A stretch of 64,000 bases of DNA from Thelephora terrestris. Its lineage: Eukaryota > Basidiomycota > Agaricomycetes > Thelephorales > Thelephoraceae. The notes beneath the pieces were generated by a model. It ran no database searches. It was not told the origin of the DNA and saw only the letters and a list, made by a program, of their open reading frames with translations. Position numbers and translations under genes: made by a program. Location of the stretch: positions 620,001 to 684,000 of the forward strand of contig WIUZ02000008.1 in NCBI GenBank assembly GCA_015956445.1. Reading direction: 5' to 3'. Shown piece after piece: positions 1,936 through 22,760 of this stretch (positions are counted from its first letter, which is position 1; every line of letters begins with the position of its first letter).

Positions 1936-4903
1936 ATTAAAGGGTGACTTAGGACTGTGAGTTAGAACAACAACATTTAATCTCCCCCAGGAAGTCTTGA
2001 ATATCATAGAGGACATCTGTGGGATCAATCCCCACCCACTCTGAAGAAAATTGGCGGACCGGTTTTTGAGATATTTCCACATCTTTACCAGGAGGAAAAG
2101 TGTCTTCTGGGCAAATGTATGAGTGCATTAGAGTCCCATAGTAGGGTTCCCTAGACTACTATAGGGCCAAGGAGGACCCTCCAGGAGAAATCCAGAATTT
2201 TGGAGGTGTCCTGCATGATTTGACTTTGTGCCTCCTGTGTGTTGGGGAGGAGGTGACTCAAATGGTTCCACAATGCTCTAAAAATCACAGAAGTAGACAC
2301 ATACACCTTGTAGATGCTCATAAGGATGGGGGAGAGGGTTTCAGGATTTTTGGGCAAAGGTCTGGACCTCCTGTTTGGACATTTCCACATGCTCCCTAGG
2401 GTGAACTGGGCAAATGTATGAGCACATCAAAATCTCATGTTTGCATTTCCCAGACTACTATAGCACCAAGGAGGACCTTCCAGGCAAGACCTAGAATTTT
2501 GGAGGTGTCTTGCATGATTGGACTCCCCCCTGTGTGTGGGGAGGGGGTGACCCAAATGGTTCCACAATGCTCTAAAAATCACAGAAGTGGACACATACAC
2601 CTTGTAGATGCTCATAAGGATGGGGGAGAGGGTTTCAGGATTTTTGGGCAAAGGTCTGGACCTCCTGTTTGGACATTTCCACATGCTCACTGGGGTGGAC
2701 TGGGCAAATGTATGAGCACATCAAGGTCCCATATCTGCATTCCCCAAGCTACTATAGCACCAAGGAGGACCTTCCAGGAGAGATTGAGAATTTTGGAGGT
2801 TTCCTGCATGATTGGACTCCCCCTGTGTGTTGGGAGGGGGTGACCCAAATGGTTCCACAATGCTCTAAAAATCACAGAAGTGGACACATACACCCTGTAG
2901 ATGCTCAGAAGCATGGGGGAGAGGGATGCAGGATTTTTGGGCCCAGACCTTTCCCACTGAGATGGGTGGGATGAATGGTCAGGAGACATGGGGGTGGATT
3001 TGAAATGCCGCACCAGTGAGCAAGACACAGAGCCCATCACACAATTCCAAGCCCTATGTACAGAAGCCTGGATAGACTAGAGGTTGTCCCACACTTGTTG
3101 GCTGGGAGAGGAGGGGTGTTGGATGACTGGGCCTTGGCAATTCATTGAGGGGGTTGGTTATGAGGGGCACTAGTTATCTGCACAGGATACAACTGGAGAA
3201 TGCAGAGGCATAAAGTCAAAAACATGATGAGTTTAGTGTGGATATTTTCCCATCCGGCTCTCCTTGAGAGGGTAAGGTGAGATGATTCCACAAAGGACTA
3301 AAAACCACAGGAGTGCATGTACACACTCAACAGACCTTGCAGACTGCGGTGACAAACAATCCAGTGGTTTTGGACAAACATCCACTCTTCCATCTCCCAC
3401 CCCACCCACCCCCACACCCAGGGGGTGGGGTGGGTGGGGTGGGAGATGGAAGAGTGGATGTTTGTCCAAAACCACTGGATTGTTTGTCACCGCAGTCTGC
3501 AAGGTCTGTTGAGTGTGTACATGCACTCCTGTGGTTTTTAGTCCTTTGTGGAATCATCTCACCTTACCCTCTCAAGGAGAGCCGGATGGGAAAATATCCA
3601 CACTAAACTCATCATGTTTTTGACTTTATGCCTCTGCATTCTCCAGTTGTATCCTGTGCAGATAACTAGTGCCCCTCATAACCAACCCCCTCAATGAATT
3701 GCCAAGGCCCAGTCATCCAACACCCCTCCTCTCCCAGCCAACAAGTGTGGGACAACCTCTAGTCTATCCAGGCTTCTGTACATAGGGCTTGGAATTGTGT
3801 GATGGGCTCTGTGTCTTGCTCACTGGTGCGGCATTTCAAATCCACCCCCATGTCTCCTGACCATTCATCCCACCCATCTCAGTGGGAAAGGTCTGGGCCC
3901 AAAAATCCTGCATCCCTCTCCCCCATGCTTCTGAGCATCTACAGGGTGTATGTGTCCACTTCTGTGATTTTTAGAGCATTGTGGAACCATTTGGGTCACC
4001 CCCTCCCAACACACAGGGGGAGTCCAATCATGCAGGAAACCTCCAAAATTCTCAATCTCTCCTGGAAGGTCCTCCTTGGTGCTATAGTAGCTTGGGGAAT
4101 GCAGATATGGGACCTTGATGTGCTCATACATTTGCCCAGTCCACCCCAGTGAGCATGTGGAAATGTCCAAACAGGAGGTCCAGACCTTTGCCCAAAAATC
4201 CTGAAACCCTCTCCCCCATCCTTATGAGCATCTACAAGGTGTATGTGTCCACTTCTGTGATTTTTAGAGCATTGTGGAACCATTTGGGTCACCCCCTCCC
4301 CACACACAGGGGGGAGTCCAATCATGCAAGACACCTCCAAAATTCTAGGTCTTGCCTGGAAGGTCCTCCTTGGTGCTATAGTAGTCTGGGAAATGCAAAC
4401 ATGAGATTTTGATGTGCTCATACATTTGCCCAGTTCACCCTAGGGAGCATGTGGAAATGTCCAAACAGGAGGTCCAGACCTTTGCCCAAAAATCCTGAAA
4501 CCCTCTCCCCCATCCTTATGAGCATCTACAAGGTGTATGTGTCTACTTCTGTGATTTTTAGAGCATTGTGGAACCATTTGAGTCACCTCCTCCCCAACAC
4601 ACAGGAGGCACAAAGTCAAATCATGCAGGACACCTCCAAAATTCTGGATTTCTCCTGGAGGGTCCTCCTTGGCCCTATAGTAGTCTAGGGAACCCTACTA
4701 TGGGACTCTAATGCACTCATACATTTGCCCAGAAGACACTTTTCCTCCTGGTAAAGATGTGGAAATATCTCAAAAACCGGTCCGCCAATTTTCTTCAGAG
4801 TGGGTGGGGATTGATCCCACAGATGTCCTCTATGATATTCAAGACTTCCTGGGGGAGATTAAATGTTGTTGTTCTAACTCACAGTCCTAAGTCACCCTTT
4901 AAT
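1936..4903. repeat. P1, near-perfect 2,968-base palindrome
   Basis: Mirror positions sum to 6839 across the whole unit, so the two arms of about 1.48 kb align without indels and meet with almost no spacer near 3420 in a GGGTGGGG/CCCCACCC tract. Termini are ATTAAAGGGTGAC and its reverse complement. Within each arm a module of roughly 250-290 bases containing ggttccacaatgctctaaaa and gacctcctgtttggac recurs about three times; a diverged relative lies near the centre. The reading frames inside are mirror images and show no gene character. Flanking bases show no target duplication: the left flank is element E1 and the right flank is part of P2, so the palindrome sits on a junction between unrelated sequences. 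Confidence 0.9.
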
Positions 4904-5761
4904 CAGCTGTAATCTTATCTGGCCTTAATCCAAATACCGTAGCTAACCAACATCTAACCCAACTTCACCTGGCTCACCAGCAAGTAACTGGGCTACAGGA
5001 ACACACTGTGAGCTGCACTATCCCATATCCTGTATCCAACTGTCACTCAAACACAAGAACTGTGGTGGACCTACAAGTTAGTGGACCCATAAGCCCACAG
5101 ACCCACAAGTATAGGCTGCTCACTCAGTGGAGACATCTGTTATCCAACCTCACCCACGTACCACCCTCACCCTGTGTTCTGTGCCAGAGTGCAACTTCAC
5201 CACAGCTCAAGTTCAACTACCTGGCTAAACCCATGTACAATCAGGTCTACAAATCCATGGATCCATAACCAACAGTCTATCAACCTGACTTGCAGGTTCA
5301 GCCAGGTGGTTGAACTTGAGCTGTGGTGAAGTTGCACTCTGGCACAGAACACAGGGTGAGGGTGGTACGTGGGTGAGGTTGGATAACAGATGTCTCCACT
5401 GAGTGAGCAGCCTATACTTGTGGGTCTGTGGGCTTATGGGTCCACTAACTTGTAGGTCCACCACAGTTCTTGTGTTTGAGTGACAGTTGGATACAGGATA
5501 TGGGATAGTGCAGCTCACAGTGTGTTCCTGTAGCCCAGTTACTTGCTGGTGAGCCAGGTGAAGTTGGGTTAGATGTTGGTTAGCTACGGTATTTGGATTA
5601 AGGCCAGATAAGATTACAGCTGATTAGAAGAGATAAACTCAAGTTGCATCAGTCTAGGTCAGGTGAACCACTTTAGGTTAGGTTGGGTGATCTGTGGTGG
5701 ACTAGGCTAAGTTGACTATGTCAGGTTAGGTTGGGTCTAGGGTAGGTAAGACAGGATAAGA

Positions 5762-5792
<31 letters not shown>

Positions 5793-7283
5793 AGATAAGA
5801 CAAGGCTGAACTAGGCCAGGTCAGAGTTAGGTTTAGGGCAGGTTAGGTTTAGATGTAGGTTTAGGTTTAGGTTTGGTGCTAGGTTAGGTTTAGGGCAGGC
5901 TGGATATAGGGCAGGTTAGGTTTGGGGTTAGGTTAGGTTAGGTTAGGTTTAGGTTAGGTTTAGGTTAGGTTAGGTTAGGTTGGGTTAGGTTAGGTTAGGT
6001 TGGGTTAGGTTAGGTTAGGTTAGGTTGGGTTAGGTTAGGTTAAGGTTAGGTTAGGTTAGGTTTAGGTTAGGTTAGGTTAGGTTAGGGTTAGGTTGGGTTT
6101 AGTGTTAGGTTAGGTGTAGGTTTAGGTCTAGGTTAGGGTTAGGGTTAGGGTTAGGGCTAGAGTTAGGCTAGGTTAGGTTAGGTTAGGTCCAGGACTAGGT
6201 TTAGGGCTAGTTTATGACCACAAACTGGTCTGTACTTCATGATATAATGAATATTATGGATATATTTCTATTTTCCTATTTTGATTTATTTTTTTGGGAT
6301 TTTTATGAATTTTTTGGGCAAAAAATATATTAATATTACAATTATGGGCTATTCAATAAACCAAAAAATTGAAATAATTTTTATAAAATATTTATCTATA
6401 TTCTGGAATTTTTCATGATTTTTCCAGCCAGAAAAACAATTTTCTGGATATTTCTGGGAGTAATTTACCATTTTGGGCACTTTCTAGACCTGTGGGAATT
6501 TTTTCGATATTTTTTAAGATTTTTCTGGCATTTTTCCGATTTTTCTGGCATATAATTTCCTTTTTTGGTAATTTTTGCCAAAATCATTTTTGAGTTGCTC
6601 ATGTAAGCCATCAAAATTTCCTTTTTGGAAACTCTTTCCCAAAAAGGAAATTTCCTTTTTCGGTAATTTTTGTGAAAAGCATTTTTGAGCTGCTTATGTA
6701 AGCCATCAAAATTTCCTTTTTTGGTAATCCATCAAATATTTCCTAAAAAGGAAATCCTTTTTAGGAAAGACCCCTCCAAAAGCAATTTTGAGACGCTTAT
6801 GTAAGCCATCAAAACTTTCCTTTTTTGGATGGTCACATGACCTGATTACATAAGCAACACCCACTTTTTTCAGTCACATGACCTGCTTATGTCAGCCATC
6901 AAAATTTCCTCTTTGGGAAATTCAATGCCAAAATCATTTTCAAGTCGCTTATGTAAGCCATCAAAAATTCCCTTTTTTGGTCAGTCACATGATCTGCTTA
7001 CATCAGCAACTCCCACTTTTTTCAGTCACCTGACCTGCTTATATAAGCCATCAAAATTTCCTTTTTTGGAAAAATCACATGACTCACTTATATAAGCACA
7101 CCCAGTCACTCGGTGCTACCACATTGTCGGCTCCTGCCTAATCAGGAGTACCGAGCAGCTGGTATTGCAACTGCCACAGGCAGCATTGCAATGCCATTGA
7201 GCATTGTAATCACTACGAGTTAAAGTATTACAATTTTACGAGATCTGGCAGTAAATTGTACACAATTATGATAAGGACTACTG
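4904..7283. repeat. P2 left copy, truncated palindrome (core plus right arm)
   Basis: Corresponds to 45668-48049 of the complete P2. It keeps about 300 bases of the left arm next to the centre, a loop of about 60 bases near 5229-5290, and the full right arm. The right arm has a GATAA tandem run (about 5757-5801), then telomere-like TTAGG/TTAGGG arrays (about 5820-6200), then AT-rich DNA, then repeats of a phrase like aagccatcaaaatttccttt (about 6600-7075), and the terminus ataaggactactg. The left side is replaced by P1. No coding potential is evident. Confidence 0.88.
5757..6200 (+). repeat. GATAA run and telomere-like TTAGG/TTAGGG arrays inside P2
   Basis: About seven GATAA units are followed by some 400 bases made mainly of TTAGG, TTTAGG and TTGGG variants, with a short true TTAGGG run near 6135-6155. 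TTAGGG is the usual fungal telomere repeat, but here the array is internal to a palindromic element, is mixed in sequence and is flanked by unique DNA, so it is not a chromosome end in this location. Confidence 0.85.
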
Positions 7284-7324
7284 TAGCACTAGATTCGAAG
7301 GTCGCGCGAATAGACGGCGGGTCA
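7284..7324 (-). mobile_element. 41-base gypsy LTR remnant
   Basis: Matches the promoter-side end of the gypsy LTR (minus-strand start TGACCCGCC) at 29290-29330 with two C/T changes. It is the piece of LTR left on the far side of the P2 insertion and carries the second copy of the P2 target duplication, TAGCACT, at 7284-7290. It shows that the duplicated block was copied after P2 entered the LTR. Confidence 0.8.
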
Positions 7325-7565
7325 ACGGGCGAGCCTAATGAGGTGCCTACGCTGGATCTCGGAGGCGACCTGTCGGAGTGGTCGGTTGACGCTGTATCGG
7401 AACCGTCTTCCCTCATCTCCACGAGACTCGTCACCATCTGAGCCACCTGGAAGATGGTAGGGGTGAGAAGCCTGCATGCGATGACCGTGACCACGCTTGC
7501 TGCGTTGACCCCGTCTAGTCAAACGCACCTCTACGGATCTATCCTCCGCCTTGTCAACCTCCATC
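7325..7565 (-). pseudogene. gene C2 fragment
   Basis: Reads leftward from about 7564 with MEVDKAEDRS, RRGQRSKRG, EGRRFRYSVNRPLRQ and SEIQRRHLIRLAR, and aligns with exon 4 of C1 (MEVDRAED, REFRYRINRPYRQVESEIQLRH). The frame is cut on one side by element E5, inserted in the codons around MEVD, and on the other by the gypsy LTR. A second open frame (AQMVTSLVEM...) overlaps it, as in C1. Only about 80 residues remain, so it is a broken copy. Confidence 0.65.
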
Positions 7566-8028
7566 TGTCAGGGTTGAAGGCCTGCTTACTTTCTGTGGGG
7601 CGCTAGAGGATTAGTGGGATAGGGAGTGTCGGGGCGACAAGGGTGATTGAGTGGAGTTCCTGGCGTAGGGAGGAGTTGAGGGGGGAGGTCGAGAGCGAGG
7701 GGTGACTCGGTTGAATAGGGGTGGATTGGCGAGTTGTAGTCTTGACAAAACTCGAGGAGATGTTGGATGAACGGTTCGAAGTCTTGGTCGCTGAGTCGTT
7801 CAAAGTCGACAAGGTAGTCTATGATAGCAAAGGGAAGGTCAATAGGTATGGACGTTGGTGGTGAGATGAACTCGAGGGGTGGGAAAATAGAAGGAGGGAC
7901 TGATACTAAATAGACGGTGGCTAGCACGCTATTAGTAAGTTCCGATCTCCAGAGGAATTGATGATCCGCTCTGAGAAGAAAAGGTGAAGTGGTTACTCCG
8001 GCGTCGAGAGCAGCAAAGGGACGATAGT
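7566..8028. mobile_element. E5, truncated TGTCAGG-family A/B element
   Basis: Begins TGTCAGGGTTGAAGGCCTGC, the same 5' end as E2 and E3, directly after CCATC in gene C2. Only the gene-B side survives; palindrome P3 cuts it at 8029. The matching right end and target duplication are therefore absent. Confidence 0.75.
7586..8028 (-). pseudogene. gene B5 fragment
   Basis: Aligns with B3 from YRPFAALDAGVTT to the C-terminal end NPLAPHRK. The N-terminal third is missing at P3. The stretch corresponding to SPAIIVLWWEIPTELPY of B3 is deleted. This left copy has one base fewer near 7909 than its duplicate, which by chance rejoins the frame to IDYLVDFERLSDQDFEPF; in the right-hand duplicate the frame ends soon after TTNVHTY. 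Not expected to be functional. Confidence 0.65.
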
Positions 8029-8753
8029 CACTGGGGGCAAGGGAGTACTTACCCAGTGGGTGCATTGTGAGTTCATTGTGGGTTTTGAAACCATTTGCCC
8101 AGTTGTTACCCACCAGGTACTTTTTGGGTACTTTTTGAAAGATACCCATCAATTTGCCTGCATTTTACCCACTGGGTACATGGTGGGTACTTTGTAAAAG
8201 TACCCATTCAGGAACCCAGTGGGTACTTCTTGAGCGAAACCCCTGGGTTCTTTCACAATTTACTTTCCAAAGTGCCCATTACAAACCTGAGCCACTTGTT
8301 GAGAGTTCTTTCATAAAGTACCCACTGTTCTGATCACAATGTACTCAACCAGATACTCAATGGGTTCTTTGAGAGTTTGTGATGAAACTGAGCCACACTG
8401 TAAGTTCTTTGTGAGTTCTTTGAAAAAAACCCACTGGGTACATTGTGATCAGATTGGTGGGTACTTTATGAAAGAACTCTCAACAAGTAGCTCAGGTTTG
8501 TAATGGGCACTTTGGAAAGTAAATTGTGAAAGAACCCAGGGGTTTCGCTCAAGAAGTACCCACTGGGTTCCTGAGTGGGTACTTTTACAAGGTACCCACC
8601 ATGTACCCAGTGGGTAAAATGCAGGCAAATTGATGGGTATCTTTCAAAAAGTACCCAAAAAGTACCTGGTGGGTAACAACTGGGCAAATGGTTTCAAAAC
8701 CCACAATGAACTCACAATGTACCCACTGGGTAAGTACCCCCTTGCCCCCAGTG
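8029..8753. repeat. P3, CACTGGGG-family palindrome (725 bases)
   Basis: Termini CACTGGGGGCAAGGG and reverse complement; mirror positions sum to 16782 with few mismatches. The interior repeats phrases such as cccactgggta and gaaagaactc, seen also in P6 and P7. Unlike its relatives it has no 3-base duplication: the left flank is gene B5 and the right flank is gene C3. This suggests that the junction formed by recombination between two palindrome copies, or by loss of adjacent DNA. Confidence 0.88.
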
Positions 8754-9005
8754 TCAGAGGTCCAGCATCGGTACCTCACTCGGCTCGCCATTGCTGATCC
8801 CACGAGGGGTCCGATGAGGGAGACAGAGGGTCGCTTGCCAATTACGTTGACAGCGCTGCCGAGCAATCACCCGGTGTTGGAGATGTGGAACCAAGTGTTC
8901 CAAAGTTCGGTGACATCTGGGCGGCTGATGGGTCCCTTCAAAGGAGTCTCTTTGTATCGACTTGAACTAGTCGTTCAGTTGAGTGAGGAGGATGGGGACG
9001 CCATG
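8754..9005 (+). pseudogene. gene C3, first part
   Basis: Starts abruptly after P3 at SEVQHRYLTRLA and runs to LELVVQLSEEDGDAM, where E2 is inserted. It aligns with C1, but a one-base deletion near 8795 puts the stretch that C1 reads in its first frame (DEGD.GSLA.YVDSA) into the second frame, so it reads as one open frame. Substitutions against C1 indicate first-frame constraint up to FGDIW and second-frame constraint after, so the single frame is a lesion, not the original state. Continues at 15890. Confidence 0.6.
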
Positions 9006-9025
9006 TGTCAGGGTTGTAGGCCTGC

Positions 9026-9561
9026 TTACTCTTTGTGGGACGCTAGAGGATTAGCGGAAGGGGTGAGGGTACGGGGTCGAACTTGGAGAGGGGTTCCGGG
9101 TGTAGAGGGGAGATGAGGAGGGATATCAAGCGAGAGTGGTGACTCGGTTTGATAAGGGTGAACGGGCGAGTGGTAGTCTTGGCAGAATTGACTCAGTTGC
9201 TGTACGAACGGTTCGAAGTCTTGATCGCTGAGGCGTTCGAAGTTAACGAGATATTCTATAACCGAGTAAGGTAGTTCAGTTGGCACTTCCCACCAAAGGA
9301 CGAGGATAGCGGGAGAGTGAGTATGAATGTTAGTGGTAAGGTGAATGCGAGGGTTGGGGAAGTAGAAAGCTGGGCTTATACTGAAGTAGACAGTCGCTAG
9401 GACGCTCTCAGTAAAGTCTGAATATGGGTTAATAAACCGGCTGTTCGGTTTACTTGGAGACTCCTGATGAGCTTATACTCCCAGATAGATCTCCTGGCGT
9501 CTGGTACGACGGGACGTTGGGTGGGGCTGGTAGAGGGGAAAGGGTTGGGGGCGCTGAACAT
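9026..9561 (-). pseudogene. gene B2, broken
   Basis: Start at ATG 9561-9559. A deletion of about 100 bases near 9428, at a short CAT/ATT match, removes the region equivalent to YRPFAALDA...HQFLW of B3 and shifts the frame to a stop. The C-terminal half is still open (9286-9026): ELPYSVIEYLVNFERLSDQDFEPFVQQL to ANPLASHKE. Divergent to A2. Confidence 0.7.
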
Positions 9562-10308
9562 ACACTGGCAGGAGAATTCCTGCTAGAATGAGTCAGAAAG
9601 GAAATAAGGCGTGAGGAGAATTCCTCAGCTTACTTTGTTTATTCAAGTTATGGGTAGAGGAGTACAGAAGAGATTGAGAATGGGGAAAAGAAAGGAGCGG
9701 ACGCTCTTCCTTATATACCCAGTCCTCTACAGGAGTCATAATTCTACAACGAGCCAAACAGGGATCAACATGGTCTGTGCGTAGTTTAGGGTAGGTCGAA
9801 TGAGTCATGGGAGTGGGACTTAGAACGATAGGGGATGATGACTAATGTGGGGACAATAGGGGGGAACAAACTGATGGAAGTATTAGGGGATTTCTCGTGT
9901 TTTACGGTAGTAATAGAAGCGCACTGGGGATTTCTCATGATCGATGGGGATTTCTCGGAGTTTGATGGGATCGCGATTGGGGCTGAGGGTTCGTTTACCC
10001 TAATTGGGACATTAATGGATAATAGGTTATTGTTTTCCCCTTTCGGTTTTCTTTGAGTCAGAATATATTTAAGTCAGGGGGATTAATGATCGTTCCCTCC
10101 ATCGTCTCTTTTCCTCTCCCACCAATACCTCAACCACTCTCACCTCTCTAAACATCCCTTGATTTACTATGTCTGCCTTCGCTGCCAACCAAGCTTTGCT
10201 CAATGCTACCACCACCCCCTTTGATCTTTCCCCGTCGTTCGAGACGGATGCTCCCTATGAAGTGGAGCAGCACCTATACGACACCCCTTGTCAGGGTTGT
10301 GGGCCTGC

Positions 10309-10932
10309 TTACTGTTTGTGGGGCGCTAGAGGATTAGCGGATGGGTGGGGAGTGTCGGGTCTGGTTTTGAAGGGGGTTCCGGGTGTGGAGACAAGTGGAG
10401 GAGGGATATCGAGAGAGAGAGGTGACTCGGTGTGATAGGGGTGGACGGGCGAATGGTAGTCTTTGCAGAACTGGCTGAGTTGCTGCACAAACGGTTCGAA
10501 GTCTTGATCACTAAGACGTTCGAAATTGACGAGATATTCTATAACAGGATAAGGTAGTTCAGTTGGAATTTCCCACCAAAGAACGATAATAGCAGGGGAG
10601 TGGGTGTGGATATTAGTCGTGAGATGAATGCGTGGAGAAGGGAAATAAAAGGCCGGGCTGACGCTGAAGTAGACGGTCGCTAAGACGCTTTCAGTAAAAT
10701 CTGAATTCCAGAGGAATTGATGATCTGCCCCTAGTAGAAAAGGGGGAGTAGTGACTCCGGCGTCAAGAGCTGCAAAGGGTCGATAGTAGGGGAAATGAGT
10801 AAGTAAGCCGGCTGTTCGGTTTACTTGAAGACTTCTGATGAGCTTATACTCCCAGATAGATCTCCGGGCGTCGGGGACGACTGGTCGTTGGACTGGACTG
10901 GTAGAGGGGAAAGGGTTTGGGGCACTGAACAT
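10309..10932 (-). CDS. gene B3, complete 207-residue protein
   Basis: Open from ATG 10932 to a stop just inside the element end; no intron needed. Conserved blocks shared by four copies: MFSAPNPFPS; RRSIWEYKLIRSLQVNRTAG; YRPFAALDAGVTTPPFLLGA; HQFLW; ESVLATVYF; IIVLWWEIPTELPYPVIEYL; NFERLSDQDFEPFVQQLSQF; then a Pro/Ser-rich tail SPLSLDIPP...PLAPHKQ. No membrane segment, signal peptide or catalytic motif was recognised. The ERLSDQDFEPFVQQL stretch may be an amphipathic helix. It is divergent to A3 with 716 bases between starts. Function unknown; because it always travels with A, a joint role in the element is inferred. Confidence 0.72.
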   Translation of the reverse strand: MFSAPNPFPSTSPVQRPVVPDARRSIWEYKLIRSLQVNRTAGLLTHFPYYRPFAALDAGVTTPPFLLGADHQFLWNSDFTESVLATVYFSVSPAFYFPSPRIHLTTNIHTHSPAIIVLWWEIPTELPYPVIEYLVNFERLSDQDFEPFVQQLSQFCKDYHSPVHPYHTESPLSLDIPPPLVSTPGTPFKTRPDTPHPSANPLAPHKQ

Positions 10933-11077
10933 ACACTGGCAGGAAGATTCCTGCTGAGATGAGTTAGAAAAGGGGTAAGGCGTGAGGAGAATTCCTCAGC
11001 TTACTTTTATTCAGGTTTGTGGGTAGAGGAGTACAGAAGAGATTGAGAATGGGGAAAAGAAGGAGCGAACGCTCTTC

Positions 11078-11086
11078 CTTATATAC
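11078..11086 (-). promoter_or_regulatory. TATA box of gene B3
   Basis: Minus-strand TATATAAGG, about 146 bases before the B3 start. The same box occurs in E1 (near 512-521) and E2 (near 9710-9718), preceded by the same flanking sequence. Confidence 0.5.
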
Positions 11087-11135
11087 CCAATCTTTTACAG
11101 GAGTCATTATTCTACGACGAGTCAATCAAGAGTCA

Positions 11136-11149
11136 ACATGGTCTGTGCG
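11136..11149. promoter_or_regulatory. shared motif ACATGGTCTGTGCG in E3
   Basis: Found between the divergent promoters in E1 (573-586), E2 (9768-9781) and E3, and twice in the otherwise different element E4 (13499-13512, and 13520-13533 with GCATGG). Conservation across elements with different cargo suggests a binding site for a shared factor. Neither its function nor the factor can be read from the sequence. Confidence 0.45.
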
Positions 11150-11249
11150 TAGTTTAGGGTAGGATAGATGAGTCAGAATGAGGGGACTTAGGACGACAGA
11201 TGGTAATTACTCATACGGGAACAATAGGGGTACAAGTTGATAGAAGCGT

Positions 11250-11455
11250 TCGGGGATTTCTCGGGTTTCGTGGTAGCAATAGAAGCGTGGTGGGGATTTC
11301 TCGTGATCGATGGGGATTTCCCTGGATCAATGGTAGTAATAGAAGCATGATGGGATTTCCCGTGATCGATGGGGATTTCTCTGGATCAAATGGTAGTAAT
11401 AGAAGCGTGGTGGGGATTTCCCATGACGGATGGGGATTTCTCGGGGTTTGATGGG
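11250..11455 (+). repeat. GGGATTTC repeats upstream of gene A3
   Basis: At least six copies of GGGATTTC(T/C)C occur in a loose repeat of about 60 bases with gatcgatgggg and tagtaatagaagc. E1 and E2 have about three copies at the same place. Copy number varies between elements, and the left duplicate lacks one G near 11354 that the right duplicate has. It may hold upstream activating sites for A, or simply be an unstable minisatellite. Confidence 0.6.
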
Positions 11456-11647
11456 GTTGCGATCAGGGTTAAGGGTTTGTTTATCCTAATTCGGACTTTA
11501 ATGGATAATGGATTATTGTCTTCCCTTTCCGGTTTGTCTTGAGTCAGAATGTATTTAAGTCAGAGGGATTAAGGATCGTTTTTCCCTCATCGTCTCCTTT
11601 CCACCCCCACAATCACCACTACCACTCTCCTCATCAAAACATCTACT

Positions 11648-12385
11648 ATGTCTGCTTTCATTGTCAACAACGCTACTCTCAACGCTGCCGCCACTCCCTT
11701 CACCCCATCTTTCGAGACGGATGTTCCCTACGACGTGGAACAACACCTATATGACTCCCCTGCCAACATTGCTCATGACAACCAGGTCGCCGTCGACTTC
11801 CTCACCGCCCACAACGCTCCGGCCGAGTTCTGGGAGCAGGCCGGGTATGAAGATCCCCGACTTGCTAGGCCTCAAGTTGAGGCTATGCATCCTGGAGCCG
11901 TCCGTTTGTTGGACGCCATGGAAAGGGATCGGGAGGATAGGATTGCGAAGTTGGAGAAGCGTGTGGATCTTATGTACGTCATCATGAACAGTTTGAATGA
12001 AGACTTCTCTCATTTTGCTTTGGAACATTGGGGACCTTTCCAGGCGGCTCTCTTCCGACATTTCGGACACCAATGTCGCGGCGCCTACTGCACCGATCCC
12101 CCTTGCAAGTCCCCAGTCATCCCTTCGCCGCCACCAGGATCGGGGCGTTCCTCTCCCTCCATCCCCTCCTTGGAGTCCTCCCCCAGTTCGCCAGATGGTG
12201 GAGAGGTCCCAGAAGAAGAAGACCCGCAAGAGTCCGATGACTCCTTCTGGTCAACGTTGTCGTCCCTCCGACAAGTCACGTCAAGTACGGATGAAGTTGA
12301 AGGTGGAGGTGGCGGGTCTCCAAGACAGGTATGGGTTCGCATTAGTGAGCGGGGCCTTGTCGAGCGTGCAGCGAGAAATGCATGA
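11648..12385 (+). CDS. gene A3, frame-1 part
   Basis: Complete counterpart of A1 (245 codons): start MSAFIVNNA, VEQHLYDSPANIAHDN, FWEQAGYEDP, coiled-coil-like DREDRIAKLEKRVDLMY, Cys/His patch FGHQCRGAYCTDPPC, Ser/Pro-rich linker and acidic EVPEEEDPQESDDSFW. The frame-1 stop is at 12383-12385, but past about 12290 the conserved frame is the +1 frame. No disabling change is visible, so this could be a working gene. It reads away from B3. Family unknown; a nucleic-acid or protein-binding role is only a guess from the basic Cys/His end. Confidence 0.68.
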   Translation: MSAFIVNNATLNAAATPFTPSFETDVPYDVEQHLYDSPANIAHDNQVAVDFLTAHNAPAEFWEQAGYEDPRLARPQVEAMHPGAVRLLDAMERDREDRIAKLEKRVDLMYVIMNSLNEDFSHFALEHWGPFQAALFRHFGHQCRGAYCTDPPCKSPVIPSPPPGSGRSSPSIPSLESSPSSPDGGEVPEEEDPQESDDSFWSTLSSLRQVTSSTDEVEGGGGGSPRQVWVRISERGLVERAARNA

Positions 12386-12551
12386 CAGTCTGTCTCATGA
12401 TGTGTTGGGGTGCAAGGAGTGTTGGCAGGATCCATCGACGCGAACGTATTCGTATTGCCCCGAGAGCGTGTATAACGCTCATCATTTCGCTCATAGATGT
12501 CCGTATTGGCAGGACTGCACTTGCGATGTAGACCCATTTGTCCTTGTTTAA
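12195..12551 (+). CDS. gene A3, frame-2 part (basic Cys/His module)
   Basis: Begins at the conserved in-frame ATG (MVERSQKKKTRK) and ends DVDPFVLV-stop. Contains VRMKLKVEVAGLQDRYGF, GCKECWQDP, YCPESVYN, HHFAHRCP and CTCD. The overlap with frame 1 is about 190 bases from this ATG and longer if the open frame from 11997 is counted. The 3' UTR after it (tacgaataagaccaatgtcttgaact) is shared by A1 and A2. Confidence 0.62.
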   Translation: MVERSQKKKTRKSPMTPSGQRCRPSDKSRQVRMKLKVEVAGLQDRYGFALVSGALSSVQREMHDSLSHDVLGCKECWQDPSTRTYSYCPESVYNAHHFAHRCPYWQDCTCDVDPFVLV

Positions 12552-13800
12552 CTTTATCTTTCTTCTTAGTTCCTTTTGTATTTTATATCTACGAATAAGA
12601 CCAATGTCTTGAACTATCTGTGTGATCTTGGCTACTATGTCACGCGTTCGTGACACCCCTGCCAACATCGCCCACGACAACAGAGTTGCCATGGATTTCT
12701 TGACCGCTCACAACGCTCCCCCCGAGTTCTGGGAACAAGCGGGGTACGAAGATCCCAACAGAACTGTGATGCGGGCTCCAGGTGTTCCTCCTTTGTTGGA
12801 TGCCATGGAAAGGGAGAGGGAGGATCGTATCAGAAACCTTTCCAGGAATCTCTCCTCAGGTACTTCGGCCATAGGTGCCATGGAGCTTACTGCACCGATG
12901 CAGCTCCCCAGTCCCCCGTCGTCCCTCCGCCACCAACACAATCGGGGAGTCCCTCTTCCTCAGTCCCCTCCCTGGAGTCCTGCTCCAGTTCGTCAGATGG
13001 TGGAGAGGACCCAGAGGAAGAAGGATCGGAAGAATCCGATGACGCGTTCTGGACAGCGCTGTCGACCCTTGGACAAAGCTCGCCAGGTCCGGATGAAGTT
13101 GAAGGTGGAGGTCGCGGGTCTCCAAGACCGTTATGGGTTCGCATTAGTGAGCTCGGCGTTGACGGACGTGAAATGTCAGGCCGACGCGACCTCTACAGTT
13201 CAATAGCACTCTTGCTATTCAAACCTATCACTTTCAGGGGTTAAACACACAGTTATAACCCTGTAGCAAACCCAGGGATATCGGAAGTCTCTTCACAGAC
13301 TAGATTGAAAGAGAGGAGAAAGAAGGAGACTAGGGTCTTCAGGCACTCTTGCTCTAAGCACACAGCAGTAGAGGTCACGGAGAGTCTGATGATAACAAAT
13401 CTAAGGAGTACAGGCTAAACTACTCTGAGTATATATACTACTTAGATTTGTGACGTGACAGTGACATGTAACTACCCTAAAGATACAAACACAGACAAAC
13501 ATGGTCCGTGCGCAGCACTGCATGGTCTGTGCGTTACGTGGTGACTAATGCTACAAATTATCAGCTGATAAACAAAAGTGTGGCGGCCAATAGCAATTTG
13601 AGAGCATTACAAAGCAGTTACAAAGCATGACGTAGCCTGGGAATGTTCGGAAGGAATGTGGGTATGACTGACTAACAGCCAATGGCAAAAGGGGAGCATA
13701 TGACTAAGAAATAGGGGCATATGATGTCATGTGGGTCATGCGCAGTAAACAATAGAAATGATGACTCAACTCCTGAGTCGTGGAAGGGGCGTGGCATTTG

Positions 13801-13810
13801 GTATATAACC
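13801..13810 (+). promoter_or_regulatory. TATA box of gene D
   Basis: gtatataacc lies 58 bases before the gene D start, after a GC-rich stretch (gaaggggcgtggc). Confidence 0.55.
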
Positions 13811-13867
13811 AAAGGGGGTTGGATGACTGGTCTTCCAACAAACCCACCTTTGTTACACACAGCCAAC

Positions 13868-15129
13868 ATGCCTCGTGCTCAAACTCGTGTTCCCACTCGC
13901 CGCTCTTCTTCCTACTCTCCTGTTCAGGAGAACAACTTCAACATTGACCGCTTCTCTCATGCCCGCCGTGATGCTTCTCGCCCTTATCCCACTTTGGGAA
14001 ACGTCATGGACCGGACCGCCACCGCCGACCCTAATGAGGGTTTCACCGACTTAGGTTCGGGATGCCGGTTGACATATTTAGCGTGTCTGCTGACGTTCTG
14101 CTTTAGGATTTAGGGATTTCATTTAGGCTTCTCGCAGGGTGTCTCGGCGCAAGTTGGCGCGTATCGAGACGAACCCTTATGCGACCGAACTCCTTAACAG
14201 GGGTGTCGAGTTCGTCACTGAGACCAACGAGACCTTCAACTCTGTGTTGGAGGCCAGCGTTATCCATACGGGTAACGTTGGGTCCATGTTGATGGATGAG
14301 ATTGCTCATGTCAATGAGCGAGTTGATGGTCATCGAGAAGAGATCGAGAAGTTGGAGAAGGAGTTCCTTGGATGTCATGAAGGCATCTTGAAGATCGAAG
14401 ATGAGCAAGAGCAGCATGGTATGGCGATCGATAGGTTGAAGGTAAGAAAGTTTGGGTCAGGAGTAATTGACCTTTCTAACTCAAACTTTCTTTTAGGGAG
14501 AGGTGATCACTTTGAAGGACCTGGTCCGGAGTCTCGTTGCGAAGACCGGGGAATTGGAAGACGATAAGGTACTGGGACTGGGATCGAAGATAGTTGTCAT
14601 CTTCTAACCCTGTTCCTTTTAGGTCCGCCTTACTCGTCGTGTTTCCGAGTTGACTGGAGAAGTCCGGGATCTCCAGAGGAAGTGTAACGAGCCGGAGGTC
14701 CGAGTCGAAGAAGAGGAGCCGGAAGTTCTGTATCGGGCCGGGTCGCCGATCATCCCTAACCGGGCTGAGTCGCCGCCCGCTCGTTTGTTGGTCCGTCACG
14801 AAAACAGGTTGGTTCCCATCGACGATGAGGTCATTGAGATCGGGAGCGACGAATTCTATCAGAACGTAGGAGTCGTCCGTAGGGACACTCCTCGTCCTGA
14901 GTTCGTTTCTACTCCTTGGGGTAGTCGCCGTCAATGGCCTGCTCTGGAGTATGATCCGTACGCCGAGTTCGTTCCCAATAGTGAACCAAACTCTGATACG
15001 GAGCTTCCAGATTATGATGACTTGTCGGACGTGGACCCGAACGAGATCCGGGAGCAGAACTGGCTGAACGAGGAGTTGGTGAGATCGGCATTGGAAGTAG
15101 TACAAAGGATCCGAAGAGATATTGATTAG
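13868..15129 (+). CDS. gene D, four-exon coiled-coil protein
   Basis: Exon 1 starts at ATG 13868 (MPRAQTRVPTRRSSSYSP). Intron 1 is least certain; 14083-14137 (55 bases, GTGTCT...GCAG, branch CTGAC) gives correct phase. Intron 2 is 14442-14496 (GTAAGA...TTTTAG, branch CTAAC). Intron 3 is 14569-14622 (GTACTG...TTTTAG, branch CTAAC). Exons 2-4 read through NERVDGHREEIEKLEKEF, AIDRLK|GEVITLKDLV, LEDDK|VRLTRRVSELTGEVRDLQ: about 130 residues of heptad-like coiled coil. An acidic tail follows (VDPNEIREQNW) and then LVRSALEVVQRIRRDID-stop. The design resembles C1, including a Cys right after the coil. Unknown family. Confidence 0.68.
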
Positions 15130-15889
15130 ATAACTCTTTTGTACTGTTGACTTCCAATGAATCTTCTTTCTATTTTGTCTATTGCGTATGATCCATGAGT
15201 CGTAAAGCATAATGGTTTTCATAAGTCCAATCCAAGGGTCAGATTAATAAGCCGGTTGACTTCTGCGAGAGGTCAGCGCGCGTCGCTTATTAATACATCC
15301 CTTGTTGTCGGTAGCCTGAATATCTACTAGTCGTCCAGGGGCAACGGAGGGCCAGGTAGGGGGGAACTTCATATGAAGGTCCGCCGGTACATGTTCACGT
15401 ATTATACCTCGGGTCTTCTGGGGTATCTTGACTAGTAGCACGTTCCACGTATTGGACTTTGAGTCGTTAAGCATAGGGCATACTGCATAATAAACAGTTT
15501 ACCGCCGTGTTTAGGGCAGGGCACCAACTGACTTAGTGGTGATGAGGCGTTAAATAAAGGAAATGAAAGGGGGTAAACGGCGAAATCATCACATGAAACG
15601 CGAGATGCAGGATAGCCTATTTCATGACGTATTCGGGTGTAGGGAGTGTTGGCAGGATCCTCAGACGAGGATTTATTCATACTGCCCTCAGAGTGTTTAC
15701 AACCCTCACCATTTCGCTCACCAATGTCCTTGTGATCAGGATTGTGCCTGTGATGTGGATCCTTTCGTACTTGTGTAGTATCTCTAGGATTCGTTTCCGT
15801 TTTTATCCTTTTTGTATTATTACTACGAATGAGACCAATGTCTTTGACTATTTGTGTGATCTTGAGTACTATGTCACGTGTTCGTGACA

Positions 15890-15987
15890 CCATGTTTGGA
15901 GAGTTGCCCGCAGGGAGAGGAGGTTGGCCGAACCGGGATGGAACCCTTGAGCATTGGGTGCCCATAGAGGATACAATCGACTACTAG
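15890..15987 (+). pseudogene. gene C3, last part
   Basis: Directly after the E2 target duplication the C3 frame continues as MFGELPAGRGGWPNRDG and stops at 15985-15987. C1 has MFGEVLARRGQ at the same place, confirming that E2 split a C-type gene. Together with 8754-9005 about 115 residues of C3 remain. Confidence 0.6.
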
Positions 15988-16010
15988 CTTTGGACTTCTG
16001 TGGTACTAGT

Positions 16011-16511
16011 CACTGGGGGCAGGGGCACCTGGAATCAGTGATTACATCTTGATTACATGGTGAGTTCATGTGCACTTTCCAATGATTGTAATCACCGATT
16101 CCAGGTTGATTACATTTCAAATGTTACCTTGACATGTAATTCAACTGTGCCCACCAACTCCATCTGAAATTTCCTCAAAATGTTTCCAAGCAATGTTTCC
16201 TGAATGTGCCCAGTGGGTACATTGTGAAAACATCTCATGTTTTTGAGCGCATTTAAATTACATCTCAGACGATTGAAGAACATGCTGATTACATTGCAGT
16301 ATCATTTTTGCCGACAGGTCAAAAGCATCCCAGAAACATTTGTTGAGAACATTTCAATTGGAATTGGTGGGCATTGGTTAGATTACATGTCAAGGTAACA
16401 TTTGAAATGTAATCAACCTGGAATTGGCGATTACAATTATTGGAAAGTGCACATGAACTCACCATGTAATCAAGATGTAATCACTGATTCCAGGTGCCCC
16501 TGCCCCCAGTC
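16011..16511. repeat. P4, CACTGGGG-family palindrome (501 bases)
   Basis: Starts CACTGGGGGCAGGGGCACC and ends with its reverse complement, except that the final G is C. Allowing that change, the flanks are a 3-base duplication AGT (16008-16010 and 16512-16514). Interior phrases such as gattacatcttgattacatg and ggtaacatttgaaatgtaat pair across the centre. It is about the same length as P5 and clearly the same subfamily. Confidence 0.85.
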
Positions 16512-16514
16512 AGT

Positions 16515-16674
16515 GTAACGTTCCATTTATGCCTTGAACACACTGTGCATTTCGTTGTTTGGATGATGGGGGAGTGAAGGATAAGGAGTGTGAGACCTTT
16601 GAACAATAAGAAAGGTAAGAAAGTTTGAAGAAAGAGCGTGTTATAAAAAGTTGAAAAATACCATGTTCCTGACA
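16515..16674. mobile_element. E7, outer end of a gene-C-type TGTCAGG element
   Basis: Ends in ccatgttcctgaca, the reverse complement of the first bases of E6 (TGTCAGGAACATGG), and aligns with E6 for about 130 bases (gtgaaggataaggagtgt, aagaaagagcgtgttataaa). E7 therefore lies in inverted orientation to E6 and once contained C3 (+). Its far end is lost near P3. The base run right of the end is GTCAA, a possible target duplication whose partner is missing. Confidence 0.7.
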
Positions 16675-16679
16675 GTCAA

Positions 16680-16855
16680 CAGGTGATGGCAAGAAGTTGT
16701 ACCACAACCACAGGATCTTATCTCATGGTCTGGTCAAGCTTGCTGGCACTGCTCAAGGATTACCTCTGTTCTCACACAATGAACCTCTGGTTCTTAGACT
16801 TGCTTGTTCCAGAGTTTCAGCTGCTTGCATATTTGAAACAATATGGTCTGGAAGG
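16680..16855 (+). pseudogene. exon-like fragment next to E7
   Basis: One frame is open from the E7 edge: GDGKKLYHNHRILSHGLVKL, AGTAQGLPLFSHNEPLVLRL, SRVSAACIFETIWSGR, followed by a plausible donor GGTGAGTAT. The composition looks like coding sequence, but I do not recognise the family and no partner exon was found. It may be the host gene that E7 interrupted. Confidence 0.35.
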
Positions 16856-16859
16856 TGAG

Positions 16860-19250
16860 TATATTGCCTGCCATGGAAGGTAATCCCCTGAGAGGGTGGA
16901 GCTGGAGTGCGTCGGTTTTCAGGACTGCCCAGATCACAGGCTTCTCTTTCATTTTGCCGCAATCGTGATTGATGACACTGAGGTGTGGTAGGTTCCCTTA
17001 CAAATGAGTTCAAATGATTAGTTTCTCCCCAAAGTTGGAGAAAGTAAAGTCACTCACATAAGAAATAGTTCTCCTATCAACTTCACAAGTAAATGGGCCC
17101 AACAGGGATTACAGCGAGATGTACATCCTCCAGGCAGAGATCAGAGGTGGTATTAGAGTGACCAAACAGCCAGTAGTTATGTGTAGGTGCTGAGCAGGCA
17201 GAAAGGCAACAGATATTGAGTAGATGGTGAGAGATAGCAGCTGATTAGAACTTTCAGAGCTTAATATTGTCAAATTTTCTTCAAGTTCTTGTCTAGAGAG
17301 AGCCCTTTTGGATAGCTGGTGGTTGTAATTTTTTCAGATTTTTTCGATTTTTTCCTGGATTTTTGTGTCCAGATTTCTCCAGATTTTTGTATGTTGGCAG
17401 ATATGTTGAGGTCAACAGGTGTTGCAGTCAGTGTATGCTTAGCCGACTCACAGAAATTAGCTAAGCAAGGTCTATTACCAAAAAAGGAACTACGGTCGCT
17501 GACATAAGCTAGGCTTTTTGGACACCCTAAGCAACCTAGAGCCTCACAAGCTCGGCTAACCAGGAGTTCTGTGGCCTGGCAACAGGTTTAACAGGCCACA
17601 CTCATTTCAGCAATAGCCAATGCCATGCCGGAGGTGCCGAATAAGCAATGTGAGGAACCAACATCACATAACCAACATCACATGGCTCAACTATCCCATC
17701 AGTAGATAGAGACCAGATCACTGGGTAACACACACACAAGTTGCAGGAATCTGACATAGATACAATCAGTCATATGATGGGCAGTATTCCTTAAGCCACT
17801 GTTACATGTCACACTATACAGCTGTGACTAATGTGGTAATGTATGTATGCAAGGACACTCAGTCAGTTACAATCAATCAAACACTTCTCTTCCTTTGACT
17901 GCTTGCAACAATACCTGAAGCTCTCCCCTTTAGTAATGTTTAGAGTGCCCTCATAGTAGGCGAGAATATACCACTATGTGTAACAGGGCTAGATGTGCAC
18001 CCAGAGGAATGGAAAGAATCCACCTGTGGGTCATTCTGCGTAATCCAGGCAAACAGTCCTACAAAAGGAACCTAAAGCCTACCATTTAATCACACTCTTG
18101 GACACACTAGGAAAGTTATCCTTGCTGATTATTATAGATGATTTTGGCCATTTTGTGAAACCAGGAACATCTTCCATCCTGAAGCACCTCTGAACTGCAA
18201 GGTATATACATGAAGCATAGTGCGGGAAAACAACATAGGAGTTGCCTAAAAAGAGGATAGTGCAGATATGAAAGATGACATAGTATGATGGGCATTACCA
18301 AATAAGGAACAATTCATTATGGAAAGTCACAGGAAAAATACTTTTCCAATACAAGGGCTACTAATGCACACTACAAGGCCGGTGAATCTCTCAATCTCAA
18401 TGCCTACACCTACATTCCTCCTCAATAACCTATTACAACAGTGATACCATAGGCCTTGACAACCTAACTATTGCTCATGGTGCCATGCCCCCAGGATTCC
18501 AGACCAAGTTACCAGATACTAGACAGGATCTACAATGCCCTTGGAGACTTCCAGGCCAGGGAAAAAAGATGGGAGTGATGGATGTGAAAAAATGGTGTTA
18601 ACACAGGGGAGCAAAGTTGAACTTGTGTGGATGCATGGACACAAGGACATCAAAAACCTAACACTCATCCAATGGACTGACACCCCCAAATATGTCTCAA
18701 ATAACTAGTCTGAGGTCACCTACTGTTATCCAGGCTCTCCCCCACGCTCTACTGTTGTCTGTTTGACCCACTCCCACACAGACAAACAATGGATAAAATT
18801 ATATGGGGATATAAGGAAAAAAAGAAGGGACGTGCTGGAAGGGCTCACCACCAACCACTTTGGGCCCGCGGCAAAAGCCCCCCATCAACAGCACCAATTG
18901 TTACCTCCCCTGCCATATCTTACACCACCTACACAACCTACCCAACCACAAAGTGTGTAATGTGTACCACAGCCCCTGCACAATAAAACTAGTGGCAAAA
19001 AGGAACAAACATGCTTCCATTACTCAAAGAGACTATGACCTCCTTGTAATCTGCTTGACCACGCAGATGGCCTGGGAGGGCTGAGATGCTTTCAGCTGTT
19101 GGAGTTAAGGTGATGCTTGCTAGGAATGTCTGGGCAGGGACATCAGATCACATGCTCGTAAGCCTGATTCCATGATGTTGGAGTCATGAAAGGCCTCCAA
19201 GAGCAACAGTGAAAGTGACTATTTGTATCATGGATCTACCTCCCAATTTC
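16860..19250. other. no recognisable gene
   Basis: About 2.4 kb of moderate composition with only short open frames, none with a coherent product, conserved motif or splice pattern. It contains a T-rich stretch near 17320-17390 and several cytosine-rich repeats such as accaacatcacataacc near 17660. It may be decayed transposon DNA. The duplicate at 57628-60018 is virtually identical, so duplication comparison gives no information on constraint. Confidence 0.5.
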
Positions 19251-19254
19251 AACA

Positions 19255-19505
19255 GGGGTGAAACCTAACCTAACATCAACCGAGCCTAACTGTAACCTGA
19301 ACCAATACTCGAACAAAATTATAGAACCGAAAACCTAAACCGGAACCGAAATCCCAACCTAAACCAAAAACCCAACCAAAACCAACCAAAACCAAAAACC
19401 CAACCTAAACTGAATTAAAGCACCGAAAACCTAAACCTAACTTAACCTATCTGAACCTAAAACCTAAACCTAACTTAACCTAGCTGAACCTGAAACCTCA
19501 ACGAT
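19255..19505 (-). repeat. degenerate telomere-like AACCTAA tract
   Basis: About 250 bases rich in AACCTAA, AACCAAAA and AACCGAAA, the complement of TTAGGTT-type units, strongly decayed. It resembles the arrays in P2 and P8 but with no visible inverted partner nearby. Confidence 0.6.
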
Positions 19506-19539
19506 AAATTGTAATACTGTTTATGGGGGAGGTTTGGGA

Positions 19540-19664
19540 GCCAGTGTAGTACGTATACCGCAATGGCAGGGCACTAGCAAAGGTTGCCAGTGTGGTACGT
19601 GTACCGCAATGGCAGGGCACTGGCAAAGGTTGCCAGTGTGGTACGTGTACCGCAATGGCAGGGG
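19540..19664 (+). repeat. tandem repeat, 46-base unit, about 2.7 copies
   Basis: Unit ccagtgtggtacgtgtaccg followed by caatggcagggcactggcaa and a short end; the first copy differs at a few positions. Each unit contains the inverted repeat GTACGTGTAC. Confidence 0.75.
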
Positions 19665-19679
19665 GGGTTCAGACGTTTT

Positions 19680-20505
19680 TTTGAATGGTTCGATAACCAG
19701 TTCCTATAGATAGGTCACGTGACCTGTTAGATTGATGCAAGAAGGGTTATTACGTAACTGTGGGTCCGATCATTTGATTGGCGCCCGTAGGTCCACATCA
19801 GTGGGCGCGGTGGGTCCAGTGGGTCCGTGGGCGTTTGTGGGTCCTTAGGGGTCCGTGGGCGTCTGTGGGTCCGTGGGTCCTTGTGGGTCCTCGAGCACCT
19901 GTGACTTGGGGAATTTTCGACTTTGACTCCTGTGACGTCATGCTGACTAATCGATCACCTGCCCTCGGGCAGGGGGCCCTTAACCGGGTACCGGCTAAGC
20001 GATCGGTTATAACTTGACCGAGCGGGCCGACGGGTTGATTCTTTCCCGACGATCGGGGCGCTCGTTCCTAACGGGGATTCATCGGATCAACTTAGGTCTG
20101 ATCCACCCGCGGCCTAGAACTGATGGCCTAAGGTAGTGACAGTGACGTAGTCGATGACGCCTTGCGGCGTTAAAGCTTAATATGACGTCGCGATCAACGC
20201 GCGTCCGTTAGGATCACGGCTATGGTTGAGCCGGTCCGGCGTTCGGTTTATTCCGGCGAGTAGCCAATTTTGCGTGGGAACTGATGAGACTGTACAGTCG
20301 AAAGGGATTATATAGCGCTCGATCGATCGCCGATCGAGTTCTATATCACTCTTCCCTCAACCACCACCATCTCCAGGTCGCCCCACCCCCTCAATAAAAC
20401 TCAAAAGTTTTATTTTTTAATCGGTATGCCCTTTTTGTCCACCCGCGACCTGACGGCCGCGGGTGGATTAGACCTAACCTAACCTAACCCTAACCTAACC
20501 TAACC
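19680..20505. other. GC-rich stretch with small hairpins and a second TAACC tract
   Basis: No convincing gene. Visible items: repeated gtgggtcc words (19765-19895); a TATA-like tatatagc near 20309; hairpins around 20317-20338 (CTCGATCG/CGATCGAG), 20394-20416 (AATAAAACT/AGTTTTATT) and 20438-20466 (CCACCCGCG/CGCGGGTGG); then CCTAACCTAACC repeats to about 20510. The three hairpins in 150 bases could mark an element end or a transcript end. Nothing here identifies which. Confidence 0.4.
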
Positions 20506-20776
20506 TAACCTAAAGTTACCCACAAAGACCAAGAAGCACAAAGGAAAGCAGGATGAAGACTTCAACCAGCTAGTGGACGACCTGAGTAACCTCAAGATTG
20601 ATGACCCCAAGTACTGGGTCAAATATGTACACTTTGCTCAGCAGTACCCACATCTCCAGAATTACGTAGAACCTCCTCCTAACCGAAACTCAGCAAGACC
20701 AAATCAACCTAGAAGACCATTCCAGAGGGATCTACCACCTCATCAGAACTTTGGCAACCAACAATTCCCCAACCCC
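20506..20776 (+). pseudogene. coding-like fragment interrupted by E6
   Basis: Open frame with a basic start (KTKKHKGK), then DEDFNQLVDDLSNLKIDDPK, YWVKYVHFAQQYPHLQNYVE and a Pro/Asn/Arg-rich end QPRRPFQRDLPPHQNFGNQQ. It stops being host sequence exactly at the E6 start (…CAACCCC|TGTCAGG). It looks like real protein, perhaps a low-complexity nucleic-acid-binding region, but no family was recognised and its start is unclear. Confidence 0.4.
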
Positions 20777-22700: not shown

Positions 22701-22760
22701 GTTTTGGTAAGATGATGGGGAAGTTGCTGGTGTTGCTGATCAAGGATGGCTCCAAGAAGA

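Follow-up and report, generated by a model that had tools for sequence, protein, structure and literature searches.

Probable Giant Solo Long Terminal Repeats Carrying Protein Genes on Both Strands in Thelephora terrestris

Nested Insertions in the Window

We analyzed a 64,000-nt stretch of the 40.6 Mb assembly of the ectomycorrhizal basidiomycete Thelephora terrestris (contig 59, bases 620001-684000; hereafter, the window), which contains three nested insertions, E2, E3 and E4. These are very likely giant solo long terminal repeats (LTRs) of 2.1-2.4 kb from Ty3/gypsy-type retrotransposons, inverted relative to the way they had been read before. The comparison that leads to this assignment is with a sister family, F, which is the LTR of such a retrotransposon.

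E3 and E4 lie within E2, which itself lies within an F-type gene (Table 1). The boundaries and 5-bp target-site duplications (TSDs; CCATG, CCCCT and TGAAA) proposed in a first-pass annotation of the stretch were all exact on re-examination. E2 measures 6884 bp gross and about 2087 bp net of E3, E4 and their duplications. All three insertions start with TGTCAGG and end in ACA, as first described; the terminal GTTCGTGACA is common to E2 and E3, and E4 ends in CATCACA. Inverted sharing between the two ends covers only TGTCA in E3 and TGT in E4, and 7 bp in F. A self-comparison of the window revealed no direct repeats of at least 100 bp inside E3 or E4, and at this length no sign of the two-LTR structure of terminal-repeat retrotransposons in miniature (TRIM) or large retrotransposon derivatives (LARD). 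Among five complete E4 copies, the TSD was exact in the window, C12 and C5, carried one mismatch at locus L028 (flanks GCTCC/GCCCC) and had no match at C23:1883001; the insertion in L028 could be paired with an empty site in L029.

Table 1. Features of the window (positions within the window; E2, E3 and E4 are termed LTRs by analogy with F)
Feature	Position	Strand	Details
E2, E3-type giant LTR	9006-15889	(-), LTR sense	TSD CCATG at 9001-9005 and 15890-15894
E3, complete giant solo LTR	10289-12655	(-)	2367 bp; TSD CCCCT; inside E2
Gene A of E3, LTR-sense	10309-10932	(-)	207 aa; intact in 18/20 complete copies
TATA-like box upstream of gene A	11080-11085	(-)	LTR position 1571
TATA-like box TATTTAAG upstream of antisense gene B	11552-11559	(+)	
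Antisense gene B, first exon	11648-12328	(+)	245-aa frame runs to 12385
Gene B, proposed intron	12329-12371	(+)	43 bp; placed by reading frame and splice-like borders
Gene B, Cys/His-rich C-terminal part	12372-12551	(+)	In 184-aa frame
E4, complete giant solo LTR	13174-15593	(-)	2420 bp; TSD TGAAA; inside E2
Antisense gene D of E4, coiled-coil protein	13868-15129	(+)	Introns ~14442-14496 and ~14569-14622; first intron uncertain
F-type antisense gene fragment, split by E2	8753-9005	(+)	
F-type LTR, terminal part	16571-16674	(+)	End CCTGACA
F-type LTR, 3.3 kb	20777-24101	(+), LTR sense plus	Antisense gene on minus strand
Further E3-type unit	1-1939	(-)	Cut by window edge and by palindrome
Second E2/E3/E4 nest	49773-56657	(-)	Within the 99.96% segmental duplication

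Families with a Common Build

Build and end motif are common to four families, E3, E4, F and G, in agreement with the earlier view of a single family class with TG...CA ends and 5-base duplications. The E3-type family (TGTCAGGGTTGT...GTTCGTGACA) was represented by 20 aligned complete copies of 2224-2367 bp, and the E4-type family has the ends TGTCAGGCCGAC...ATCATCACA. F is 3.3 kb long (TGTCAGGGCCACTC...TTCCTGACA; TGTCAGG...CCTGACA), and G, a single copy, is 3.8 kb long (TGTCAGGGCCAGTC...GCACGCTGACA). No nucleotide match between G and F reached the threshold used; their genes were 33% identical across 115 residues of part of each in a two-sequence comparison. Read in LTR sense, the ends are TGTCACGAAC...CCCTGACA in E3 and TGTCAGGAAC...CCCTGACA in F, with the common pattern TGTCAsGAAC...CCCTGACA. 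E3 and F also have in common 5-bp TSDs and an antisense intron-bearing gene.

LTR Nature of Family F: A Ty3/gypsy Chromodomain Retrotransposon

At locus L035 (C23:1039001-1049000), an inverted F is followed in order by a primer-side region, gag, pol, a purine tract and a second inverted F. The first inverted F terminates at 3064 with GGCCCTGACA and is followed by GAGTAACAAAACTACC, the putative primer-site region. The gag frame (3132-5171) contains a CCHC knuckle and a Retrotrans_gag match under its cut-off; the overlapping pol frame (5093-9055) encodes, in this order, protease (RVP), reverse transcriptase, RNase H, H2C2, rve, SH3_Tf2 and Chromo domains. About 20 bases separate the pol stop from the 3' LTR, which starts at 9082 and is immediately preceded by the purine tract AGGAAGAGGATAA. 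The two F stretches are in direct orientation and identical over the 690 bp compared, and the antisense exons are likewise open in the LTR of the full-length copy. With one and the same F sequence on either side of gag-pol, F is identified as the LTR of a Ty3/gypsy retrotransposon of chromovirus type. L035 and C23:1037315 appear as a tandem of two F-type gypsy copies with a 9310-bp period and one LTR in common, possibly an assembly effect.

A 22-mer spanning the LTR/primer-side junction had eight exact matches in the genome and no others at up to three mismatches. The eight junctions adjoin the eight H2C2 matches that cover model positions 1-59, among 90 integrase zinc-domain matches, so the conserved putative primer-side junction stands beside 8/8 pol copies of the F family. 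Calculated from coordinates, the distance from junction to H2C2 was 4561 bp in six of the eight, 4541 bp in one and 3623 bp in another. The junction was visible in two of 100 listed F flanks. Against eight such junctions stand 284 F ends, a count in which the 3' LTRs of complete elements, hardly more numerous than the eight junctions, are merged; nearly all F copies are solo LTRs.

Copy Number and Target-Site Duplications of E3

E3-type 5' ends numbered 317 in the genome at up to two mismatches (reversed-pattern control, 0). TSDs were typed on the 5' side in the 100 listed of 197 A/G/T-first flanks (control 0), and on the 3' side in 77 of 100 listed flanks (142 in all; control 1). A tally of these typed flanking 5-mers, named in advance as a check, upheld the first-pass boundaries: among end pairs spaced 2.2-2.45 kb, the 5-mers were identical in 36 of 38, against about one expected (shuffle mean 1.0). 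The same 36 pairs show the make-up of a solo LTR, a single unit with TG...CA ends and a 5-bp TSD. Both mismatching pairs are adjacent copies (C12:3266329 and C12:3270249). Beyond these, 22 5' ends had a distant candidate; 15 of them had a partner with an identical 5-mer, and seven had none in the typed list. Three of the 15 distant pairs were inspected; these 5.4-5.7 kb units, considered as large autonomous relatives of E3, each consisted of E3 with a nested F. Another E3 copy (C4:68508-82450; TSD GCCAA; span 13.9 kb) appears, from coordinates only, to contain an F-type gypsy. Among the typed E3 5-mers (n = 77), G came first in 30 and C last in 35, with A rarely last (5/77), a symmetrical preference as expected of an integrase.

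Structure of the Carried Genes

In sense orientation, E3 has a TATA-like box at LTR position 1571 and E4 one at 2157, and the antisense gene has a TATA-like box of its own. The 184-aa and 245-aa frames of gene B overlap at 11997-12385. In the window copy of gene D, an in-frame stop lies near an exon start; none was seen on reading the listed relatives. The F antisense gene, too, has two overlapping open frames near its end.

Protein D, queried as a splice version whose first intron gene models show to be wrong, had 72 database matches, and all 71 with a record name were from Thelephora terrestris. Protein B had 39 matches and gene A nine, partly from Joint Genome Institute (JGI) sources on short contigs. 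No Pfam match was found in A, B or the tested F exons, and protein D matched only coiled-coil-like models, all under their cut-offs. Structure prediction for gene A was unusable (predicted local distance difference test score, pLDDT, 39). The first-pass annotation had been unable to place the cargo proteins and had recognized neither reverse transcriptase nor transposase inside E2, E3 or E4; with nothing above cut-off in the proteins tested, Pfam agrees on both counts.

Selection on the Carried Genes

Divergence at codon positions 1/2/3 was 0.041/0.019/0.245 in gene A (20 copies) and 0.073/0.047/0.182 in the first exon of gene B, with 0.17-0.19 in non-coding sequence. This bias between codon positions shows that both E3 genes are under purifying selection, strong for A. 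A third-position bias was also present in D (5 copies) and in the F gene (6 copies). In the non-coding arms (E4, 1-630, 5 copies; F, 1-600, 6 copies), conservation was strong, with no codon periodicity.

Replacement/silent ratios per site were then separated into shared and private changes, a count that omits one of the 20 E3 copies, a 99.8% twin. In gene A, shared changes had a ratio of 0.049 and private ones a ratio of 0.33 (Fisher p = 3e-11), and gene B changed in the same direction (0.137 and 0.541, p = 5e-6). There were three stop cells in gene A and two in gene B, and a shifted-frame control for gene A gave ratios of 2.36 and 1.05. The pattern fits selection in active source elements followed by decay of solo copies; since private changes are generally less filtered, it is not proof.

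Between 11999 and about 12300, gene B has two open plus-strand frames and divergence falls to 0.03-0.06; past 12300, a third-position bias appears in the second frame, at its Cys/His-rich end. In the overlap, the ratio was 0.25 (shared) and 0.34 (private) for the 245-aa frame and 0.53 and 0.89 for the second frame. Stop-codon cells numbered eight in the overlap of the first frame and eight in the C-terminus of the second. Given the weak ratios of the second frame and these stop-codon cells, use of both overlapping frames is only a suggestion.

Assignment of E2, E3 and E4

The flanks read revealed no full-length element of E3 or E4, and the LTR status of these families is accordingly argued from F, which they match in their type of ends and duplications, their size class and the arrangement of their genes. 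Gypsy LTRs as a rule have TGTNR ends (PMC2836005). The first-pass annotation had mentioned very large solo LTRs carrying genes as its alternative, and this is now the best supported reading, gag-pol having been found between two F copies. The observation it had named as decisive, one sequence at both ends of gag-pol, was made for the sister family and not for E3 or E4 themselves.

Several results weigh against extending the LTR assignment to E3 and E4. No copy stood beside gag-pol in the flanks surveyed (152 of 249 exact-pattern E3 and 100 of 118 E4 flanks), in a survey that could reveal only recurrent primer-side sequences, and no primer-side sequence common to E3 or E4 flanks was seen among those examined. 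If 5' LTRs were as frequent as in F (8/284), the 152 E3 flanks should include 4.3 of them and the 100 E4 flanks 2.8; the chance of finding zero is 0.013 and 0.057, respectively. Near the 90 H2C2 matches, with incomplete E3/E4 lists and loose limits, there were four E3 ends and zero E4 ends. Three of the four (C3:973090, C15:525093 and C4:82450) have matching TSDs of their own; the fourth, C1:546843, is located downstream of an F-type pol, and the typed list contains no TSD partner for it. Homology between proteins B and D was also not detectable.

Individual candidates for E3 or E4 beside an internal region were rejected. The recurrent E3 flank CAAGAGGGTGCCC at C8/C22 belongs to a duplicated locus containing the same E3 insertion (C8:940990-941900 vs. 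C22:113890-114800, 99.9% identical), and neither there nor beside the recurrent E4 pair at C1:200898 was a gag-like frame seen by eye in about 0.9 kb. The recurrent flanks read were those at C8/C22 and C1; a further recurrent pair, in inverted orientation, lies at C13 (GTAACTGGGCTAC). At C59:692639, E3 is not the LTR of the gypsy present but an insertion with its own TSD, CCTCC.

The missing full-length copies leave room for mobilization in trans, the reading that the first-pass annotation had preferred in the form of small elements moved by a Mu/Tn7-like enzyme or an integrase. E3 and E4 would then be stand-alone non-autonomous elements with F-like ends, inserted as DNA or cDNA by a gypsy integrase, their genes helping to exploit the helper. 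The 36/38 close end pairs that are single units with their own TSD are in keeping with this, as are the youngest E3 pair, 99.8% identical with different TSDs, and the intact gene A of 18/20 copies. On the other side, F, which has the same build and comparable ends, is an LTR that likewise occurs nearly always as a solo copy (8 junctions/284 ends), the relaxed private changes fit dead solo copies, and we know of no route that produces a blunt single-LTR cDNA. We regard movement in trans as unlikely for E3 and E4, though less so than the alternatives that follow, and less well supported than solo LTRs.

A DNA-transposon identity, whether Ginger-like or from another DDE class, is highly improbable for the E elements. 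TGT...ACA ends (TGTCA) and 5-bp duplications would suit it, and Tdd-4/5 of the Ginger2 group make 5-bp TSDs (PMC2836005). However, long terminal inverted repeats are absent from E3 and E4, the proteins tested had no Pfam match above cut-off, to a DDE transposase or otherwise, two rve loci inspected (L026 and L027) look like Copia gag-pol by eye, and F is an LTR; Plavaka and IS481EU have other TSD lengths in the literature consulted. Derivation from a Copia family, whose integrase matches occur close to E4 (C23 and C2) and E3 (C1), or from a separate gypsy in the window has a negligible chance, refuted for these two families by their own LTRs: that Copia has 355-bp LTRs (TGTTGAACC...CTCAACA, TSD TAGGG) and sits inserted in E4 at L028, and the window gypsy has 970-bp LTRs with different ends.

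Proposed Mechanism

For giant LTRs, the following cycle is proposed. Retrotransposon RNA would start at the TATA box within the LTR, if that promoter is used, and cross the remaining LTR (in E3, through gene A) to the primer site, gag and pol; the conserved non-coding arms of E4 and F may be the RNA leader. The integrase would insert the cDNA, making the 5-bp duplications, and we judge the first-pass idea of an integrase-type enzyme provided from elsewhere to have been right. Recombination between the two LTRs would then delete the interior and leave a single LTR flanked by the duplication. For F, a chromovirus-type LTR retrotransposon, solo-LTR formation is the common fate.

From the same central promoter region, the opposite strand would express an accessory gene with introns (B in E3, D in E4 and related genes in F and G), presumably spliced in vivo. 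Genomic RNA carries these introns on the strand wrong for splicing, and they would therefore persist through retrotransposition. The introns of gene D had been taken as an argument against copying through RNA, one that dissolves once these genes are read as antisense to the RNA being copied, since splicing of their own mRNA leaves the copied strand untouched. Most likely, the A-, B-, D- and F-type proteins serve the retrotransposon in an accessory or regulatory role.

Other Features of the Window

The window contains a segmental duplication of at least 18.3 kb with 99.96% identity (4900-23231 vs. 45664-64000, self-comparison); the second E2/E3/E4 nest is part of it and hence not an independent insertion. 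The flanking 5-mers of the 3.3 kb F-type LTR do not match each other. The separate window gypsy (28327-44112) has LTRs that are 99.2% identical, with fragments of reverse transcriptase, RNase H and integrase; it is broken at 31560-36440 by a large inverted repeat with, according to match offsets, ~35-bp tandem units. Palindromes of 0.5-3 kb occur at 1936-4903, 8029-8753, 16008-16515 and 26673-27403, with halves matching at 78-99.8%. At least those at 8029-8753 and 16008-16515 have CACTGGGGGCA-like ends and for that reason look like fold-back transposons. The only Rfam match, under its gathering score, is located in a palindrome.

Significance and Comparison with Known Systems

LTRs are usually regarded as regulatory sequence; here, they carry protein genes under selection (observed for F, by analogy in E3 and E4), in E3 on both strands. 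Three families with more than 100 ends each occur in one ectomycorrhizal fungus, and the elements are the source of many hypothetical proteins, as the 72 matches of protein D illustrate. For annotation, such solo LTRs mimic independent transposons or families of host genes. Their antisense position accounts for the long-term presence of introns in genes carried by a retrotransposon. More speculatively, a gypsy lineage may have placed accessory genes in its LTRs (antisense and intron-bearing in every family seen, plus a sense leader gene in E3), so that hundreds of solo LTRs could make proteins controlling the copy number or silencing of surviving elements, as trans-acting genes and not debris. 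If this tentative idea were true, each element-destroying recombination would leave a complete gene set behind.

Ginger2/TDD DNA transposons resemble the E elements in TGTNR ends and TSDs of 4-5 bp and differ in having inverted repeats of 50-180 bp and an encoded transposase, neither of which was seen in the E elements (PMC2836005). In rice, Retrosat2 has LTRs of more than 3.2 kb and an extra open reading frame (ORF), ORF0, upstream of its gag-pol ORF, which is not described as LTR-located (PMC3485330). Long LTRs, an extra ORF and the similar RIRE8/Retrosat2 ends (TGTCACACCC...GGGCGTGACA) make it comparable, whereas here the extra genes lie within the LTR (in F, and by analogy in E3/E4).

Like other Ty3/gypsy chromoviruses with solo LTRs, F has the order LTR, gag, protease/reverse transcriptase/RNase H/integrase/chromodomain, LTR, with TG...CA ends, a 5-bp TSD and mostly solo copies. 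The families described here depart from them in LTRs of 2.2-3.8 kb that hold conserved protein genes, including antisense intron-bearing ones, a feature shown in F and extended to E3, E4 and G by analogy. In the single literature collection searched, no description of an LTR-encoded antisense intron-bearing gene was found. The plant Gypsy elements Retand, Grande and RIRE2 have antisense ORFs between pol and the 3' LTR (PMC11963269), likewise accessory coding regions antisense to gag-pol. Unlike theirs, the antisense gene of L035 lies inside the LTR, so that a full element has two copies of it, one of which is kept by each solo LTR.

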